In this document: positions 5,280 to 63,870 of the stretch, in pieces
Numbering within the stretch: the first letter of the stretch is position 1
Layout: each line of letters begins with the position of its first letter
NCBI RefSeq assembly: GCF_021654775.1
Contig: NZ_AP025343.1
Coordinates: 248,001 to 312,000 of the forward strand
DNA: 64,000 nt
From: Paenibacillus azoreducens
GTDB lineage: Bacteria; Bacillota; Bacilli; Paenibacillales; Paenibacillaceae
Reading direction: 5' to 3'
Position numbers and translations under genes: made by a program
Notes under the pieces: generated by a model
What the model was told of the DNA's origin: nothing
Seen by the model: only the letters and a program-made list of their open reading frames with translations
Database searches by the model: none

Positions 5280-6032
5280 ATGAATAGTCCATTTACATCC
5301 GGGTCCGATCAAAATATCAAGTTTACCGTTGTTATTCCAGCCCGAAACGAGGAGAAGTACATCGGCCGCTGCCTTGATTCGATTGCTGCAGCTGCCAAAC
5401 CTTATCCGGGACAGGTCGAAGTGATCGTCATGATCAACCGCTGTACGGACCGGACGGCTGAAATTGCCGAGTTATACGGCGCTGTCACGATACCAATCGA
5501 AAGCAAAAATTTGTCCCAAATTCGTAACGCCGGCATACACGCCGCTCGGGGCGAGATCATCGTCACGATTGACGCTGATAGCTGGGTGACGGACAACATG
5601 CTGACGGAAATCGAACGGCTGCTGCAGACAGGCAAATATATCGGGGGTGGCGTCCGCTCGGCTTTTGAACGAAATTCCCTCGGCATCGCCATGTCGGCGC
5701 TTGTGCTGATCGTTCCGCTCCTTTTCAAATACGGACTGTTAACCGTAGGCCTCTTCTGGGGCTACAAAAAGGATTTTGAAGCGATAGGCGGTTTTAACGA
5801 ACAGATGCTGATGGCGGAAGATATCGAGTTTGCCAGCCGCCTGAACAAATGGGGGAAGCGGAACGGGAAAAAATACGGTACCGTGACGAAAGCAGTAATG
5901 ACAACTTCATGCCGCAAGTTCGACCAGTACGGGGATTGGGGTCTAGTCAAAAATCCGAGGATCGTCCGCGCGTATCTGAAGGGCAATGACCGCGAATATG
6001 CGGATCAGGTCTATTACGAAGTCGAAAAATAA
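5280..6032 (+). CDS. Family 2 glycosyltransferase
   Basis: A 250-residue GT-A fold enzyme with VVIPARNEEKYIGRCLDSI at the N-terminus, the metal/nucleotide-sugar motif DAD at residues 98-100, and the AEDIEFASRL acceptor motif near residue 180. A hydrophobic stretch around 130-155 suggests membrane association. GGGGGCG lies upstream of ATG 5280. It is cotranscribed with the TetR gene. The sugar donor and acceptor cannot be determined. Confidence 0.85.
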   Translation: MNSPFTSGSDQNIKFTVVIPARNEEKYIGRCLDSIAAAAKPYPGQVEVIVMINRCTDRTAEIAELYGAVTIPIESKNLSQIRNAGIHAARGEIIVTIDADSWVTDNMLTEIERLLQTGKYIGGGVRSAFERNSLGIAMSALVLIVPLLFKYGLLTVGLFWGYKKDFEAIGGFNEQMLMAEDIEFASRLNKWGKRNGKKYGTVTKAVMTTSCRKFDQYGDWGLVKNPRIVRAYLKGNDREYADQVYYEVEK

Positions 6033-57915: not shown

Positions 57916-57944
57916 TTGACAACGCATTTTGATTGGTTTATATT
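57916..57944 (+). promoter_or_regulatory. Sigma-A promoter of the SLH adhesin
   Basis: TTGACA (57916-57921) and TATATT (57939-57944) with exactly 17 bp between. Transcription would start near 57951, giving a leader of about 230 nt that contains the riboswitch-like structure. Confidence 0.75.
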
Positions 57945-58007
57945 GATCGACAGTTCCTATATACTAACTTTTGGTAGATCCATGGACAGGGATTAAGATT
58001 ACGCACA

Positions 58008-58110
58008 TCTGCAATAACGACAATTTTATATTTTGGCACACTAATCGAAAGGTTAGCTCGCAAAGCCTTGGAGTCTAACAGTCTTTATGACTTATGATCG
58101 TCCGGTTGCA
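58008..58110 (+). promoter_or_regulatory. c-di-GMP-I (GEMM) riboswitch, adhesin leader
   Basis: GGCACACTAATC-GAAA-GGTTAG forms the P2 hairpin with its GAAA tetraloop, followed by the hallmark CTCGCAAAGCC and GAGTCTAA and the receptor-stem end TATGATCGTCCGGTTGC. TGCAA at 58010-58014 can pair with TTGCA at 58106-58110 to close P1. Two positions depart from the usual GGCAAAC and GACGCAAAGC, so ligand preference should be tested. It lies 73 nt before the adhesin start. Confidence 0.75.
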
Positions 58111-58141
58111 ATTAATATCGTTAATGCAGCCGGGCTTTTTT
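58102..58141 (+). terminator. Riboswitch-controlled terminator of the adhesin leader
   Basis: CCGGTTGCA (58102-58110) pairs with TGCAGCCGG (58125-58133), followed by GCTTTTTTT. Its 5' arm is shared with the riboswitch P1 3' strand, so ligand-bound folding should prevent the terminator, predicting induction by ligand. Confidence 0.7.
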
Positions 58142-58182
58142 GTGTTCCGGGGAACTTAAACCAAAAAATCAAGGAGGAAGAG

Positions 58183-61100
58183 ATGAAGCGGGGTTTAAAA
58201 CTTGTAGTATCATGGCTGTTCATATTGACGGTGTTCACAGGATTCATTCCAGGCAATCTATTCTTAAGCCGGGTATCCGCAGCATCAAACGAGCTTATCT
58301 GGCCGAATCCCGGAGCAGTCAATCTGACCAAGACGGCCGATCCTGCAGGGAAAGGTCAATGGAATATCACGTTGACTGTTGAAGGAAAGAACATTAAAAC
58401 GACCTCGGATGTCGTGCTGGTCATCGACCGGTCCGGAAGTATGGACAAATCGGGCCGGATGACCAATGCCAAGTCAGCGGCGAACAAGTTTATCGATAAT
58501 CTGCTGATCAAAGATTCGACGACGAGAATCGCAGTCGTGACTTTCGATAAGACGGCGAGTGAAAAATCCTCCTTTGTTGAATTCGGACAGAAGGACAGGT
58601 TAAAGAACGTAATCAAAGAAATCACTGTCAGCGGAGAAGGCACCAACATTCAGGCGGGATTGAATAAAGCACGCATGATGCTGGCGGGAAGCCAGGCGCA
58701 AAATAAGGTTATCGTGTTATTAAGCGACGGCGCGCCGACTTACAGTTACAAGGCGTCGCATGCAGCGGCCTTTGGCTGGCCGGACAAAAAGTTTGACTTT
58801 ACCTTGTACGATTTCGATTATAATGACAATCAGATTCTCGGTAACGGCAAGGATTACAAACTGGATGAAGGATTTTTTGGAATAGGCCGCCAGGTATATA
58901 CCGTTAACGGCAAAAACGTAACAAACAATGGTATTGCATCCTTATCGGAAGCCAAACTTGCCTGGGACGGGGGCATAGGCATTTACTCGATCGGTCTTGA
59001 AGTCGGAAAAGACGCCGACGCCAAATACGTGCTGAACAGCGCCCAGAACAAAGGTTATTATTCATCCAGCAGCGCGGATTTGAGCAAGGTATTCTCCGAG
59101 CTGTCAGGTCAGATTTCCTACGCTGCCCAGAAAGCTGTCGTCACCGATCCCATGGGCGAGATGTTCAACAAGGTCGGCGAACCGAAGGTTTCGCAAGGAA
59201 CCATTGCTTGGGACGACAAAACGGAAACCTTCACATGGAACGTCGGCAGCATTATGGAGGGTTCTCCGGCTACTTTGACCTACAAGGTCGAAATGGATCC
59301 GAAGAAACATCCTGATCCGGATACGTTGTATCCGACCAATGGAACCACAACCATAAACTATACTGACATTAATAAGGATAATGTTACGAAGAACTTCGAA
59401 GTACCGAAGGTGAACTTTGGTAAAGGGTCCATTACCATAAAAGGCTATCGAGTGAATGCAGATGGTCAGCCGGTCAATGCCGAAGGCGTGGTTGTCGAAA
59501 AAGCCGAGCTTGCGCAGCAATTGTACAATCAGCCGTTCAAGCAGGACGGGAAGGAATCGCTGGATATCAATAAAACGTATTCCGTGGCGGCTCCTAACGT
59601 CGAAGGTTATCAGCTCGAAGTAGGCGACAATCCTACCAAAGTGAACTTGACTATAGATAAACCGACCCCAACGGTCTGGTTCGGGTTCATGGAGGCTGCC
59701 GAGCAGCATGTAGCGGTCAAGTATTTAGAAAAAGGAACGAATAAAGTACTGGCTGAACCGTCGGAAGCAAAGGGCATTAAGGGACAGCAAATTCTGCTTG
59801 AAGCGAAGAAAATCAATGGGTTTACCGCCGAAAAGGAAAGCGACAAGTATACCTTTACGGGCAAAGAAGGCCAGGAGTATGCATTCTACTATACTGCCGA
59901 CAAGCAAACGGTGACCGTCAAATACCTGGAGAAGAGTACCGGGAAGCCGCTTAAAGATCCTGTCACTGTAGATGGCTTTACAGGCAAGGCCGTCATGATC
60001 GATGCTCCTGCCATTTCGGGTTACGCGCCTGAGGAGTCAAGCATAAACTACACGTTTATCGCAAAAGATGGCCAGGAATTGATCATCTATTATCAAGCCG
60101 TCGGGCAGCAGGTAAGGGTGCAGCATTTGCTGGAAGGCACAGAGAAAGAATTGGCTGAGCCAACGATCCAAAAAGGCCATGCCGGCGATAAAGTAAATGT
60201 GGCGCTGCCGCTTCCGGGTTACACTCCGGTCAAGGATACCGGGACGTATACGTTCACAGCGGATGAAAAGCAGACCCATACCGTGTACTACACGGCAGAT
60301 AAACAAACGGTATCCATCCGTTATGTGGACCAAGCCACAAATGAAGAAATTCAGGATCGAGCGACCAAGGAAGGCGTGACGGGTCAAGTCATAACGCTGA
60401 TTGCTCCTCCGATTGCAGGTTATACGCCAGTAGAAGCCGAGGGCAAGTACACGTTCACTGCAGAACAAGAAGGCCAACAGTATACATTCTACTACACAGC
60501 TGAAAAGCCGGGAGAGGAAATCCGGACGATTAACGTCAGATACCTGGAAGAGGGAACGAATCAGGAACTTCAAGAACCTACGACCCGTCAAGGCGAGGTA
60601 GGCAAAAAAATCCTGCTTGAAGCTCCGCACTTCGAAGGTTATGTCACTGATCAATACGTCGTCGAATATCCGGTAACGTCTGAAGAGAAACAGGAATACA
60701 TCTTCTATTACAAGAAAGAAGCCCCTGAAGCTGAGCAGCGAACGGTACAAATTCATCATGTTGATCAAGAAACGGAGCAGCCCATTGCAGATCCAACGCC
60801 GCTTACCGGCAAGGTAGGCGAAAAACTACAGTGGCAGGCTGAGCCGATTACTGTTGCGGATGAAGTATATACGCCGGTGGAATTTAACCATGAATATCTC
60901 ATTACAGAAGCCCCGGAACAGGAATACACCGTTTACTACAAAAAGGGCAAGGATGAGACGATTCAGCAGCTTCTGGTCAAATTTCTGGATAAAGTAACGA
61001 ATGCGGAATTGGGACAAAAGACGTATTCAGGAAGAGCGGAAGATGCAATCACGATCAAGCCGGACCCGATCACTGTCGGCGGGGCAGTATACAAACCGGA

Positions 61101-62202
61101 GCAAGCGGAGTACTCCTACCGATTTACGGGAGAGCCGCATCAGGAACTGATCATTTATTTCATCAAAGACGAGATTCCGGTTGAGAAGGATCAAGAAGTA
61201 ACCGTGAAGTACCTTGAACAGGGAACAGGAGCCGTATTGGCAGCTCCGACCGTTGAGAAAGGCAAGGCCGGCAGCACCGTTACCTTAAAGGCTGCTTCTA
61301 TATCCGGTTATACGCCTGTAAAGTCTTCCACCGTATATCAGTTTGAGAATAAAGCAGGTCAGGAGTTTATTTTCTACTATACAAAAAATAGTCCGGTAAC
61401 GCCGCCTACCGATCCGACCCCAAGTACCCCTGGTTCTTCCTCGGGTAATTCGGGAAGCGTAACGCCGCTGCCTCCGGCACCGCCGGTTGTTAAGCCATCA
61501 CCTCCAGCGCCGCCAGCCGTTACGCCGCTGCCTCCGGCACCTCCGAAGCTTGAGACGGCAACCCATTACAACTATATCAATGGGTATCCCGACGGTATGA
61601 TCAAACCGGAGAACAACATCAGCCGCGAAGAAGTGGCAGCCATTTTCTACCGGTTGATGGATGATGCAACGCGCAGTGACTATTTGAAGAGCACCAGCTC
61701 CTATAAAGATGTTGAAGCTTCGCGTTGGTCCAGCAAAAACATTGCTACCATGGAAAACGCGAAAGTTATTACCGGCTATCCGGATGGAACCTTTAAACCG
61801 GGCCGCCCTATCACCAGAGCGGAGTTTGCGGCAATCGCTTCGAGATTTGACGATCTGGATGAGCAGAAGAACACGTTGTTCTCTGATATCAAGGGCCACT
61901 GGGCTGAGAAGTACATTGTTTCCGCAGCCAACAAAGGCTGGATCAAAGGTTACCCTGAGGGACAGTTTAAACCGGATCAGTACATTACGCGTGCGGAAGC
62001 CATGGCTTTCATCAACAGCGTATTAAATCGTAAAGTCAAGGTTGAGGGTATTCATAAGGATGCGAAGACATGGCCGGATAATACGCCGAATAAATGGTAT
62101 TACACCGATGTGCTCGAAGCGACCAACTACCATGAATACAGCAGAAACAACGATCAAACGGAAGCTTGGCAGCAAGTGAAGCCGGATCGGGTGTATCCTT
62201 AA
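58183..62202 (+). CDS. VWA/MucBP/SLH cell-surface adhesin (VMSP-like PPEP substrate)
   Basis: A 1339-residue S-layer-anchored protein. Signal peptide to about residue 34 (VSAAS). VWA domain about 75-345 with the MIDAS motif DRSGS at 82-86. About eight MucBP-type repeats at 505-1070 (each ~70 residues, e.g. VKYLEKGTNK...GQEYAFYYTA). A Pro-rich linker at 1095-1121 with TPLPPAPPVV, KPSPPAPPAV and TPLPPAPPKL. Three SLH domains at about 1123-1339 (NYINGYPDGMIKPENNISRE etc.) bind pyruvylated wall polymers. This matches P. alvei VMSP, whose linker is cut by PPEP-2. ATG 58183 follows AAGGAGGAAGAG. The earlier in-frame ATG at 58087 lies inside the riboswitch. Confidence 0.9.
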   Translation: MKRGLKLVVSWLFILTVFTGFIPGNLFLSRVSAASNELIWPNPGAVNLTKTADPAGKGQWNITLTVEGKNIKTTSDVVLVIDRSGSMDKSGRMTNAKSAANKFIDNLLIKDSTTRIAVVTFDKTASEKSSFVEFGQKDRLKNVIKEITVSGEGTNIQAGLNKARMMLAGSQAQNKVIVLLSDGAPTYSYKASHAAAFGWPDKKFDFTLYDFDYNDNQILGNGKDYKLDEGFFGIGRQVYTVNGKNVTNNGIASLSEAKLAWDGGIGIYSIGLEVGKDADAKYVLNSAQNKGYYSSSSADLSKVFSELSGQISYAAQKAVVTDPMGEMFNKVGEPKVSQGTIAWDDKTETFTWNVGSIMEGSPATLTYKVEMDPKKHPDPDTLYPTNGTTTINYTDINKDNVTKNFEVPKVNFGKGSITIKGYRVNADGQPVNAEGVVVEKAELAQQLYNQPFKQDGKESLDINKTYSVAAPNVEGYQLEVGDNPTKVNLTIDKPTPTVWFGFMEAAEQHVAVKYLEKGTNKVLAEPSEAKGIKGQQILLEAKKINGFTAEKESDKYTFTGKEGQEYAFYYTADKQTVTVKYLEKSTGKPLKDPVTVDGFTGKAVMIDAPAISGYAPEESSINYTFIAKDGQELIIYYQAVGQQVRVQHLLEGTEKELAEPTIQKGHAGDKVNVALPLPGYTPVKDTGTYTFTADEKQTHTVYYTADKQTVSIRYVDQATNEEIQDRATKEGVTGQVITLIAPPIAGYTPVEAEGKYTFTAEQEGQQYTFYYTAEKPGEEIRTINVRYLEEGTNQELQEPTTRQGEVGKKILLEAPHFEGYVTDQYVVEYPVTSEEKQEYIFYYKKEAPEAEQRTVQIHHVDQETEQPIADPTPLTGKVGEKLQWQAEPITVADEVYTPVEFNHEYLITEAPEQEYTVYYKKGKDETIQQLLVKFLDKVTNAELGQKTYSGRAEDAITIKPDPITVGGAVYKPEQAEYSYRFTGEPHQELIIYFIKDEIPVEKDQEVTVKYLEQGTGAVLAAPTVEKGKAGSTVTLKAASISGYTPVKSSTVYQFENKAGQEFIFYYTKNSPVTPPTDPTPSTPGSSSGNSGSVTPLPPAPPVVKPSPPAPPAVTPLPPAPPKLETATHYNYINGYPDGMIKPENNISREEVAAIFYRLMDDATRSDYLKSTSSYKDVEASRWSSKNIATMENAKVITGYPDGTFKPGRPITRAEFAAIASRFDDLDEQKNTLFSDIKGHWAEKYIVSAANKGWIKGYPEGQFKPDQYITRAEAMAFINSVLNRKVKVEGIHKDAKTWPDNTPNKWYYTDVLEATNYHEYSRNNDQTEAWQQVKPDRVYP

Positions 62203-62213
62203 ACCAATACAAG

Positions 62214-62250
62214 CAGAAAGCCCCCTCACCTGAGGGGGCTTTCTGTTATT
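62214..62250. terminator. Bidirectional terminator between adhesin and PPEP
   Basis: CAGAAAGCCCCCTCA pairs with TGAGGGGGCTTTCTG over 15 bp, with TTATTT on plus and TTGTATTGG on minus. It lies between the convergent genes. Confidence 0.9.
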
Positions 62251-62906
62251 TATTCGGCATTATTAAAAAGCTTGTCCACATATTGATAAGTCAACGGCGC
62301 GTTTGCCTTCAATTCGCCGCGTGTCGTGTCGTTGTATACATACATGCTGGCGGCTTCGGCAAAATACTCTTCAGGATAGGTTGAAAAGTAGCCATCGTTG
62401 CCATATTCAACACTGGCTTCTTTATCGAAGATACTTTTAAATTCAGGGCTCGCGCTTGCATTCCCGAAAACGAACCGATCTACCGCATGCATGGTTTCAT
62501 GGATTTCGAGATTAAATGAATTGTGGTTGTCGCCTTTTTTACTGTAACCGATCCGGACAACGACGTTTTTTTCGCTGACGCCGGGCACATCATCCCAGGT
62601 CAACCCCGTTCCTTCCCAGCCTCTTGGGGTCTTCCCTTTCAAGTAGCTGAGCTCAGGCACGTTCGTAATCTTATCGTTAGTCAAAATGACTTTGACCCCT
62701 TTATCATACAAAGTTTTAAGGATTGGCGCAGGAATTCTCTCCAGACGGCCCATCATGGCCTTGGCTTCCTTCGCGTTATAATTGCCTGACGGCAGGACAA
62801 CTAACTGATTGATGACCGGATCTTGTGCATGAACCTCAGATTTAGGAAACACGCCAACCAGTGCAAAAATAATAAGTACGGCAAGTATTTGTTTTGTCCA
62901 CTTCAT
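62250..62906 (-). CDS. Pro-Pro endopeptidase (PPEP-2-like metalloprotease)
   Basis: A 218-residue secreted zinc protease. Signal peptide to about residue 27 (VHAQD). The core has TPRGWEGTGLTWDDVPGV (about 93-110), zinc motif HETMH at 136-140, and TYPEEYFAEAASMYVYN (about 176-192), carrying the further zinc ligand and active-site Tyr. This is the anthrax lethal factor/PPEP (M34) family, whose PPEP-1 and PPEP-2 cut between two prolines. I start at ATG 62906 with GGAGGAATGTTCGGG spacing; the ATG 9 bp upstream sits against the ribosome site. It is convergent with the adhesin, its likely substrate. Confidence 0.88.
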   Translation of the reverse strand: MKWTKQILAVLIIFALVGVFPKSEVHAQDPVINQLVVLPSGNYNAKEAKAMMGRLERIPAPILKTLYDKGVKVILTNDKITNVPELSYLKGKTPRGWEGTGLTWDDVPGVSEKNVVVRIGYSKKGDNHNSFNLEIHETMHAVDRFVFGNASASPEFKSIFDKEASVEYGNDGYFSTYPEEYFAEAASMYVYNDTTRGELKANAPLTYQYVDKLFNNAE

Positions 62907-62954
62907 CCCGAACATTCCTCCAAAGCCTGCGATCCGAAAAGAAGGTCAGGCTTC

Positions 62955-63052
62955 AATATTGGCAGCTGGCTAGCATGGCGACAATAGATCGCGGTAGCTC
63001 CTATAGCTTTGCGCCCCCATTTTTCAATGAGTTTGCCTTTGTCAACCGGAAT
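62955..63052 (-). promoter_or_regulatory. c-di-GMP-I riboswitch 2 (proximal) of the PPEP leader
   Basis: On the minus strand: GACAAAGGCAAACTCATTGAAAAATG then GGGCGCAAAGCTATAGGAGCTACC and GCCATGCTAGCCAGCTGCC. The GGCAAAC, GAAA and CGCAAAGC elements and the ATGxTAGCCAG end are diagnostic of GEMM-I. Immediately downstream AAGCCTG...CAGGCTT forms a hairpin ending 1 base before the GGAGG ribosome site, suggesting a translational platform. Confidence 0.85.
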
Positions 63053-63088
63053 TGACATATGTAATTTGCCGGGCATTCATAAAGCGCC

Positions 63089-63120
63089 AAAAAACCCTTC
63101 TCACCGAAATAAGAAGGGGT
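63089..63120 (-). terminator. Terminator between the two PPEP riboswitches
   Basis: On the minus strand ACCCCTTCT-TATTTCGGTG-AGAAGGGTTTTTT is a strong intrinsic terminator about 35 nt past riboswitch 1. It implies transcription control by the first aptamer. Confidence 0.88.
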
Positions 63121-63145
63121 AAATAACAATGAATAACATTGCATC

Positions 63146-63240
63146 TTATATCGGTAACTGGCTGGCATGGCGAATGCTCGCGTTAGCCCCTGTAGTTTTG
63201 CGTCCCCATTTTTCAATGGGTTTGCCTTTATCATTTTTTA
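63146..63240 (-). promoter_or_regulatory. c-di-GMP-I riboswitch 1 (distal) of the PPEP leader
   Basis: On the minus strand: GATAAAGGCAAACCCATTG-AAAAATGGGGACGCAAAAC then TACAGGGGCTAACGCG and GCCATGCCAGCCAGTTACC. All core GEMM-I elements are present (GGCAAAC, GAAA-type loop, GGGGACGCAAA, CTAA). It is the first aptamer to be transcribed; the terminator at 63089 follows. Confidence 0.88.
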
Positions 63241-63269
63241 GGGTGCGAATAAATCTATAATCTACCATT

Positions 63270-63298
63270 ATATTAAATCCGCCTGATTTAATAGTCAA
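63270..63298 (-). promoter_or_regulatory. Promoter of the PPEP transcript
   Basis: On the minus strand TTGACT (63293-63298) and TAATAT (63270-63275) with 17-bp spacing. Transcription would begin near 63263, about 25 nt before the first aptamer. TATAAT 3 bp further on is an alternative -10. Confidence 0.55.
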
Positions 63299-63594: not shown

Positions 63595-63870
63595 TCAGCG
63601 TATGCTTTGGCGGTCAAGTTCTTCCATTCTATGAATATATCGCAGCAGTTGTTCCTTTTGAGCCTCAAGCTCTTGAATATGGACGGCTGCTTTTTGCAGG
63701 AAGGACTCCATTTGTTGAGATAATTTCTCCGCAGAAGCTCCCTTCCAATCATGAAGGCGGTTATAAATGGATTTGATTTGCTGCTCCTGAGTCTGCAGCT
63801 TTTGGCGCAGCAGCTGGCATTGCTGTACCGCCCTTTTAAGATCTTCCAATTCTAAAGAGATTTTGCTCAT
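63595..63870 (-). CDS. WXG100-like small helical protein (YwqH/YwqI-like)
   Basis: A 91-residue, mostly helical protein (MSKISLELEDLKRAVQQCQL...) with the W-x-G turn as DWKGASAEKL near residue 43. It resembles small partner proteins of LXG/WXG100 type VII secretion toxins (YwqH/YwqI type). ATG 63870 has CAGGGGGC upstream; the longer frame to 63972 lacks a ribosome site. The preceding gene (63917-64000) runs in the same direction. Assignment is by fold pattern, not strong sequence identity. Confidence 0.6.
   Translation of the reverse strand: MSKISLELEDLKRAVQQCQLLRQKLQTQEQQIKSIYNRLHDWKGASAEKLSQQMESFLQKAAVHIQELEAQKEQLLRYIHRMEELDRQSIR

Follow-up and report, generated by a model that had tools for sequence, protein, structure and literature searches.

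The last 6 kb of the stretch analysed here (the window: 64,000 nucleotides of Paenibacillus azoreducens, contig NZ_AP025343.1, positions 248,001 to 312,000, renumbered from 1) are occupied by two convergent genes, a surface adhesin on the forward strand and a secreted protease related to the Pro-Pro endopeptidases (PPEPs) on the reverse strand. We propose that the two genes very probably form a self-shaving adhesion switch in which cyclic diguanylate (c-di-GMP) acts solely via RNA. When c-di-GMP is high, ligand binding by the single GEMM-I aptamer of the adhesin leader would hold the 5′ arm of a terminator, and the SLH-anchored adhesin would be made; the first of two GEMM-I aptamers in the protease leader would let its terminator form, and the protease would not be made. 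The second protease aptamer, near the ribosome-binding site, is probably an additional brake. A fall in c-di-GMP would stop the synthesis of adhesin and allow the PPEP-2-like protease to be made and secreted; the protease would then cleave Pro-Pro sites next to the SLH anchor and so set free the surface adhesin and with it the cell.

A search with the Rfam model RF01051 (gathering score, 35 bits) gave three GEMM-I aptamers at this locus, all above the gathering score: one in the adhesin leader (58025-58113, forward strand, 59.4 bits, E 4e-9) and two in the protease leader, of which the first lies at 63150-63236 (reverse strand, 86.6 bits, E 1e-15) and the second, gene-proximal one at 62958-63047 (reverse strand, 72.8 bits, E 2e-12). 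The whole 7.3 Mb single-contig genome contains five such aptamers, three of them within these 5.2 kb. An earlier note on this DNA, made from the letters alone, had placed one GEMM-I-like element in front of the adhesin gene and a pair in front of the protease gene, and the Rfam search recovered all three at those places. The note had also described a PPEP-type protease (with the motif HETMH) convergent with a VWA/MucBP/SLH adhesin carrying Pro-Pro sites in its linker; the structure match, Pfam domains, coordinates and linker motifs reported below agree with that description.

In the adhesin leader, an intrinsic terminator (58100-58141, forward strand; a hairpin of -20.8 kcal/mol followed by a U tract) begins inside the aptamer, its 5′ arm overlapping the last 14 nucleotides of the latter. 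Since this arm sits within the aptamer, terminator and held aptamer are mutually exclusive, and the switch is predicted to be an ON switch. Predicted folds agree: the terminator forms when the leader folds freely, but not once the aptamer is held. All 37 adhesin leaders of the family defined below have this overlap, with lengths of 10 to 22 nucleotides. When 27 leaders were aligned (24 from these 37 and three from loci L131 and L135), the terminator stem was paired in 90% of cells, compared with 21 to 41% when it is slid along the alignment.

The first aptamer of the protease leader is arranged differently, with the order aptamer, spacer, terminator. The terminator (63089-63118, reverse strand) consists of a stem at 63118-63095 and a U tract. 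In the free fold, the 3′ end of the aptamer, UACCGAUAUAAGA, pairs with the terminator's UCUUAUUUCGGUG to form an antiterminator (63100-63157, reverse strand; -14.8 kcal/mol, with none of 200 shuffles as low), in which the aptamer-terminal UACCGA pairs with UCGGUG in the loop of the terminator, while the bases after it pair with the terminator 5′ arm. The predicted folds give the antiterminator when the leader is free and the terminator when the aptamer is held. Because the antiterminator uses the 3′ end of the aptamer, a held aptamer leaves the terminator, and the switch is predicted to be OFF. Antiterminator and terminator were found in all 32 readable first protease aptamers (29 from adhesin-bearing loci and three from L101-L103, with L073 left out as unreadable), where between 0 and 6.5% of 200 shuffles reached an energy as low. 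Across 26 aligned segments from relatives, 96.4% of cells in the terminator stem are paired, and 17 cells carry double changes; shuffles averaged 3.9, and none of 500 was as high. The sign proposed in the earlier note, with the adhesin kept at high and the protease made at low c-di-GMP, therefore follows from the platforms as predicted, 37 of 37 ON and 32 of 32 readable OFF.

These relatives come from a search with the N-terminal part of the adhesin (E <= 1e-40) across 394 genomes from 19 genera of the family to which Paenibacillus belongs. Thirty-seven genomes in six genera, the window's own included, contain this part, and every one of the 37 adhesin genes has a GEMM-I aptamer in its leader. 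Neighbours were counted over 33 loci; L070, L078, L090 and L091 were excluded as their contigs end too soon, and two of these four genomes carry a tandem aptamer pair on another contig (L101, L102). A convergent downstream GEMM-I was present in 30 of the 33 loci, among them that of P. alvei DSM 29 (L086; three aptamers of 69.4, 77.1 and 74.3 bits). At least two aptamers were seen in 27 of the 30, the second match being partial in four, and one was visible in the remaining three (L073, L082, L097), so the tandem arrangement that the earlier note saw on the protease is kept in relatives. No convergent aptamer was found in L065 and L094, whose unread stretches are several hundred nucleotides longer than at most loci, which may make this an artefact, nor in the fully readable locus L098 (P. 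dakarensis), where PPxP is also absent. L076, whose adhesin frame is intact, has its convergent aptamers 3.1 kb past the stop codon, a greater distance than at most loci, and at L089 a c-di-GMP-I-GGC aptamer (5431-5510; RF03167, 70.3 bits) stands divergent beside the protease-side tandem GEMM-I.

The second protease aptamer ends 36 nucleotides upstream of the ribosome-binding site in the window and is followed by a predicted hairpin, AAGCCUG/CAGGCUU, and then the Shine-Dalgarno (SD) sequence GGAGG (62917-62953, reverse strand). In the modelled folds, the first SD bases have unpaired probabilities of 0.44 and 0.70 in the bound-like state and of 0.78 and 0.88 otherwise, and are thus slightly more hidden when bound-like. 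Elsewhere, L079 has three aptamers, the middle one with the same OFF platform as the first, and the second aptamer of L074 retains a terminator; the helix that competes with it is weaker and is equalled by 15.5% of shuffles. The second aptamer may act by translational control or may be a spent duplicate. An apparently shrunken aptamer class, suggested by second aptamers of 49-58 nucleotides in L083, L085, L087 and L089, was dismissed as an artefact, the readable sequence ending inside or just after these matches.

The protease gene (62250-62915, reverse strand) encodes a secreted Pro-Pro endopeptidase-like metalloprotease of the PPEP-2 type. Its best solved structure is 6fpc (PPEP-2; E 2e-79), followed by the entries for PPEP-1 (Zmp1; E 6e-53 to 3e-49), and it carries HETMH. 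The Pfam domain is ATLF, a zincin type with the HExxH motif, the domain family to which the PPEPs belong. Judging from several relatives that begin with MKW, translation likely starts at 62906. Tyr, Arg and Glu residues of the protease align, with numbering assigned by hand, with Tyr174, Arg145 and Glu113 of PPEP-2, which are active-site residues according to the available excerpts of PMC12828418; the same excerpts assign Val175 to the S2′ pocket. At that position, in the same hand-numbered alignment, our protease has Phe (in GYFS) and not the Val of PPEP-2. PPEP-3 is reported to carry Phe there as well (PMC12828418, in part), so this residue bears on specificity and not on family.

The adhesin gene (58183-62202, forward strand) starts with ATG at 58183 after GGAGGA and encodes a VMSP-like surface protein of 1339 amino acids with Pfam matches to VWA, a GBS104-like Ig domain, MucBP and three SLH domains. 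The name VMSP refers to the VWA, MucBP and SLH domains, and the protein has the features of this type: all three domains, PPxP adjoining the anchor and a PPEP gene alongside. Directly before the SLH domains lies a proline-rich linker, TPLPPAPPVVKPSPPAPPAVTPLPPAP (61462-61542, forward strand), whose motifs TPLPPAP, KPSPPAP and TPLPPAP are predicted candidate cleavage sites. This position of the motif is conserved, PPxP occurring within 90 residues before the first SLH domain in 27 of 28 in-frame adhesins, with L098 as the exception. In five further adhesins (L068, L086, L092, L099, L100) the SLH part with PPxP is in another reading frame, which may reflect draft error in repeats or true loss; in four no SLH part was reached, and one (L073) has PPxP outside the pre-SLH linker.

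The residue that follows Pro-Pro varies among these linkers: it is only Val in 11, only Ala in 7 and only Leu in 6 of 24 adhesins, and mixed in three others. PPEP-2 prefers Val at this position (PMC10413326, as far as the available text goes), and P. alvei DSM 29 has PLPPVP sites beside the SLH domains in the adjacent frame. Three of the six S2′/linker pairs, in the window, L067 and L071, combine Phe or Met in the pocket with Ala in the linker, and the protease of L099, a locus without an in-frame linker, has Met. It may be that protease pocket and linker residue co-evolve, but this is only a lead, as the other three pairs all have Val in the pocket (L069, Val with Ala; L073, Val with both Val and Ala; L095, Val with Val).

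Several observations weigh against the proposed switch. GEMM-I aptamers are common in the family, occurring in 334 of the 394 genomes, and the case thus rests on the position of the aptamers and not on their presence. The excess of covariation in the adhesin terminator is weak, double-change cells being as high in 37 of 500 shuffles. In the protease terminator, which has 12 pairs, the double changes are confined to two; neither the number of changing pairs nor that of pair types stands out, since 394 and 83 of 500 shuffles, respectively, reached the same level. Covariation also failed as proof of the antiterminator, whose helix is nearly invariant, with 80.4% of cells paired compared with 80.2% in shuffles. 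At related loci the identity of the protease is taken from its position, and for six of them also from matched proteins. The second aptamer of the window lacks a U-tract terminator, and SD exposure differs little between its modelled states; among the three second-position aptamers that were scored, the OFF platform fits L079 and, weakly, L074, and gave no fit at L088, where the readable sequence is cut too short to judge.

The last of these points bears on whether both protease aptamers work. Only the first might switch, and the second might be a spent duplicate, without control over the protease gene in this strain. The hairpin after the second aptamer, which has no U tract and folds in the same way with or without the aptamer, is consistent with such a loss, as is the terminator still present in L074, since it implies that the window may have lost its own. 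Against it, the second aptamer still scores 72.8 bits and has G at position 20, its bound-like fold slightly hides the first SD bases, and at least two copies persist in 27 of 33 loci, which argues that it is maintained. A spent duplicate is a serious possibility, if less likely than not. If both genes responded in the same direction, the protease would trim the adhesin during biofilm growth and not on exit; class I switches can indeed be ON, as for CbpA (PMC7423583, seen in excerpt), or OFF, but the analysis gave no support for a common direction, and the opposite platforms, each conserved without exception among the readable leaders, make it very improbable.

A different dinucleotide, such as 3′,3′-cyclic GMP-AMP (cGAMP), might also be the ligand, as GEMM-I variants that bind cGAMP exist. 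However, position 20, the specificity base, where G marks the c-di-GMP type, is G in all three aptamers of the window. Of 101 matches, six were set aside as cut or containing N; among the other 95, a pattern search found G at this position in 94, and inspection by eye found it in the last one. The genome furthermore has eight GGDEF and three EAL matches, and we give an alternative ligand hardly any weight. It is likewise unlikely, if somewhat less so, that the protease acts mainly on another surface or host protein and that its neighbourhood with the adhesin reflects shared regulation only. Cleavage of the adhesin is a prediction, and one of the PPEP-1 substrates is encoded away from the protease locus in C. 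difficile (PMC10413326, in the portions available). Yet the PPxP motif stands directly before the SLH domains in nearly all in-frame adhesins, L073 having it outside that linker, and the only adhesin without it, that of L098, is also without a convergent aptamer.

Each gene also has a promoter-like site predicted by a consensus scan: TTGACA-17-TATATT for the adhesin (57916-57944, forward strand, 11/12) and TTGACT-17-TAATAT for the protease (63270-63298, reverse strand, 9/12). The scan gave seven sites in the region compared with 7.4 in shuffles, and the two calls therefore rest on position. The -35 hexamers of the two sites coincide with the ends of the stretch singled out in the earlier note (57916 and 63298). 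A terminator-like hairpin found by sequence scan between the genes (62212-62247, not assigned to a strand) is common to both. Upstream of the protease lies a gene for a small WXG100-like protein (63595-63870, reverse strand; 23.0 bits, below the 27.3 cut-off), and at L135 a large protein that looks by eye like an EssC-type ATPase lies beyond the convergent aptamers; a connection of the locus with type VII secretion is possible. Two other GEMM-I aptamers of the genome have neighbours that were assigned by eye. The best (77.2 bits; L002, G000:C1:6747292-6750379) is flanked by a nonribosomal peptide synthetase-like gene, which lies downstream of it, and on the opposite side by a gene resembling Sfp-type phosphopantetheinyl transferases; a peptide product under c-di-GMP control is possible there. 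The other (L005, G000:C1:4576943-4580030) is weak, at 42.3 bits, and lies about 580 nucleotides ahead of a gene for a major facilitator-type transporter.

A wider riboswitch search took in 18 further loci, seven and 11, out of 79 named ones. Among the seven, three Paenibacillus loci have aptamers (L131, L132, L135), L135 with tandem aptamers on both sides, and the search gave no aptamer in the four Bacillaceae loci (L126, L127, L130, L136). The 11 distant, mostly clostridial loci have upstream of the adhesin a class I aptamer in five cases, a class II aptamer in one (L145) and none in five; a second c-di-GMP riboswitch was not found in any of them. Nine of 10 upstream aptamers at the wider loci run into a terminator that starts inside the aptamer, and L141 has a long imperfect hairpin only. 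In L131 (9610-15566), an ON GEMM-I precedes the gene of an adhesin relative of the sortase type (LPQTG); next come a sortase gene, a tandem c-di-GMP-I-GGC (RF03167) riboswitch and a gene for a protein with a Transglut_core domain, possibly an alternative shedding protease; the order of aptamers in L132 (9634-14432) is the same. We tentatively hypothesize, as a possibility we hold with much less confidence than the switch itself, that RNA-gated surface shaving is general and modular in Firmicutes that use c-di-GMP: opposite platforms of one aptamer class would make adhesin and protease mutually exclusive, tandem aptamers would make the control of the protease sharper, and different proteases could fill its place.

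The overall logic of such a switch is already known from C. difficile, as the available parts of the papers cited below describe it. Within the literature searched, what is new here is the use of class I for both signs, the tandem brake on the protease and the SLH-anchored predicted substrate. Our literature search, which did not extend to the PPEP-2 discovery paper (JBC 2018) or the 2021 PPEP phylogeny, found no paper that treats PPEP-2 and a riboswitch together, and no overlap between papers on Pro-Pro endopeptidases and riboswitches and those on Pro-Pro endopeptidases and Paenibacillus; the word "riboswitch" is absent from PMC12828418, PMC11460543 and PMC10413326. The novelty claimed in the earlier note, riboswitch control of a PPEP-2-type locus, thus stands for the literature searched, but P. 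alvei DSM 29 shares the arrangement, which is therefore not peculiar to this strain.

Taken together, our data predict the way in which many Paenibacillus species detach from surfaces, including the sign of control of each gene, and provide about 30 natural candidate protease/linker pairs for studies of specificity. They also point to a likely control signal of the PPEP-2/VMSP pair. The closest counterpart by structure is P. alvei PPEP-2, whose entry 6fpc is the best relative of our protease, and P. alvei DSM 29 has the same aptamers; the pairs differ in their sites, PLPPAP and PSPPAP here compared with PLPPVP, and in the S2′ pocket, Phe here compared with Val175. For PPEP-2, the substrate gene is adjacent and the site is PLPPVP, according to the portions of PMC10413326 available. 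In the Bacillus cereus group, a class I c-di-GMP ON switch (Bc2) controls the repeat-rich surface adhesin CbpA, and the excerpts of that report mention no partner protease under an opposite switch (PMC7423583). Our adhesin leader resembles Bc2 in that it is a predicted class I ON switch on a surface adhesin.

In the LapG/LapA system of Pseudomonas, the activity of the protease is held by a c-di-GMP-binding membrane protein, and the proteins are unrelated to the PPEP and adhesin described here; unlike that system, the locus reported here would act through RNA control of protease synthesis. The outcome in Pseudomonas is comparable, in that a drop in c-di-GMP leads to the loss of a surface adhesin with cleavage of a surface protein (PMC3032545, in part). 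Tandem c-di-GMP-I arrays in Bacillota have been reported for a transglutaminase-like gene (PMC12452182, in part). In C. difficile, as far as the accessible text of the reports goes, PPEP-1 (ZmpI, CD2830) and the adhesins CD2831 and CD3246 are under inverse c-di-GMP riboswitch control (PMC11477304, PMC6366702, PMC6200980), with a class I OFF switch on the protease and class II ON switches on the adhesins (PMC11477304, PMC6200980), and a class I gene, CD630_19900, rose with c-di-GMP (PMC6200980). Both systems pair a secreted Pro-Pro endopeptidase with an adhesin whose inverse control and whose sites near the anchor are, in our case, predicted. Unlike C. difficile, which combines sortase-anchored adhesins with two unrelated riboswitch classes, P. 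azoreducens has an SLH adhesin, tandem protease aptamers and class I aptamers of both predicted signs, so that a single riboswitch class would drive an enzyme and its putative substrate in opposite directions at the same locus.

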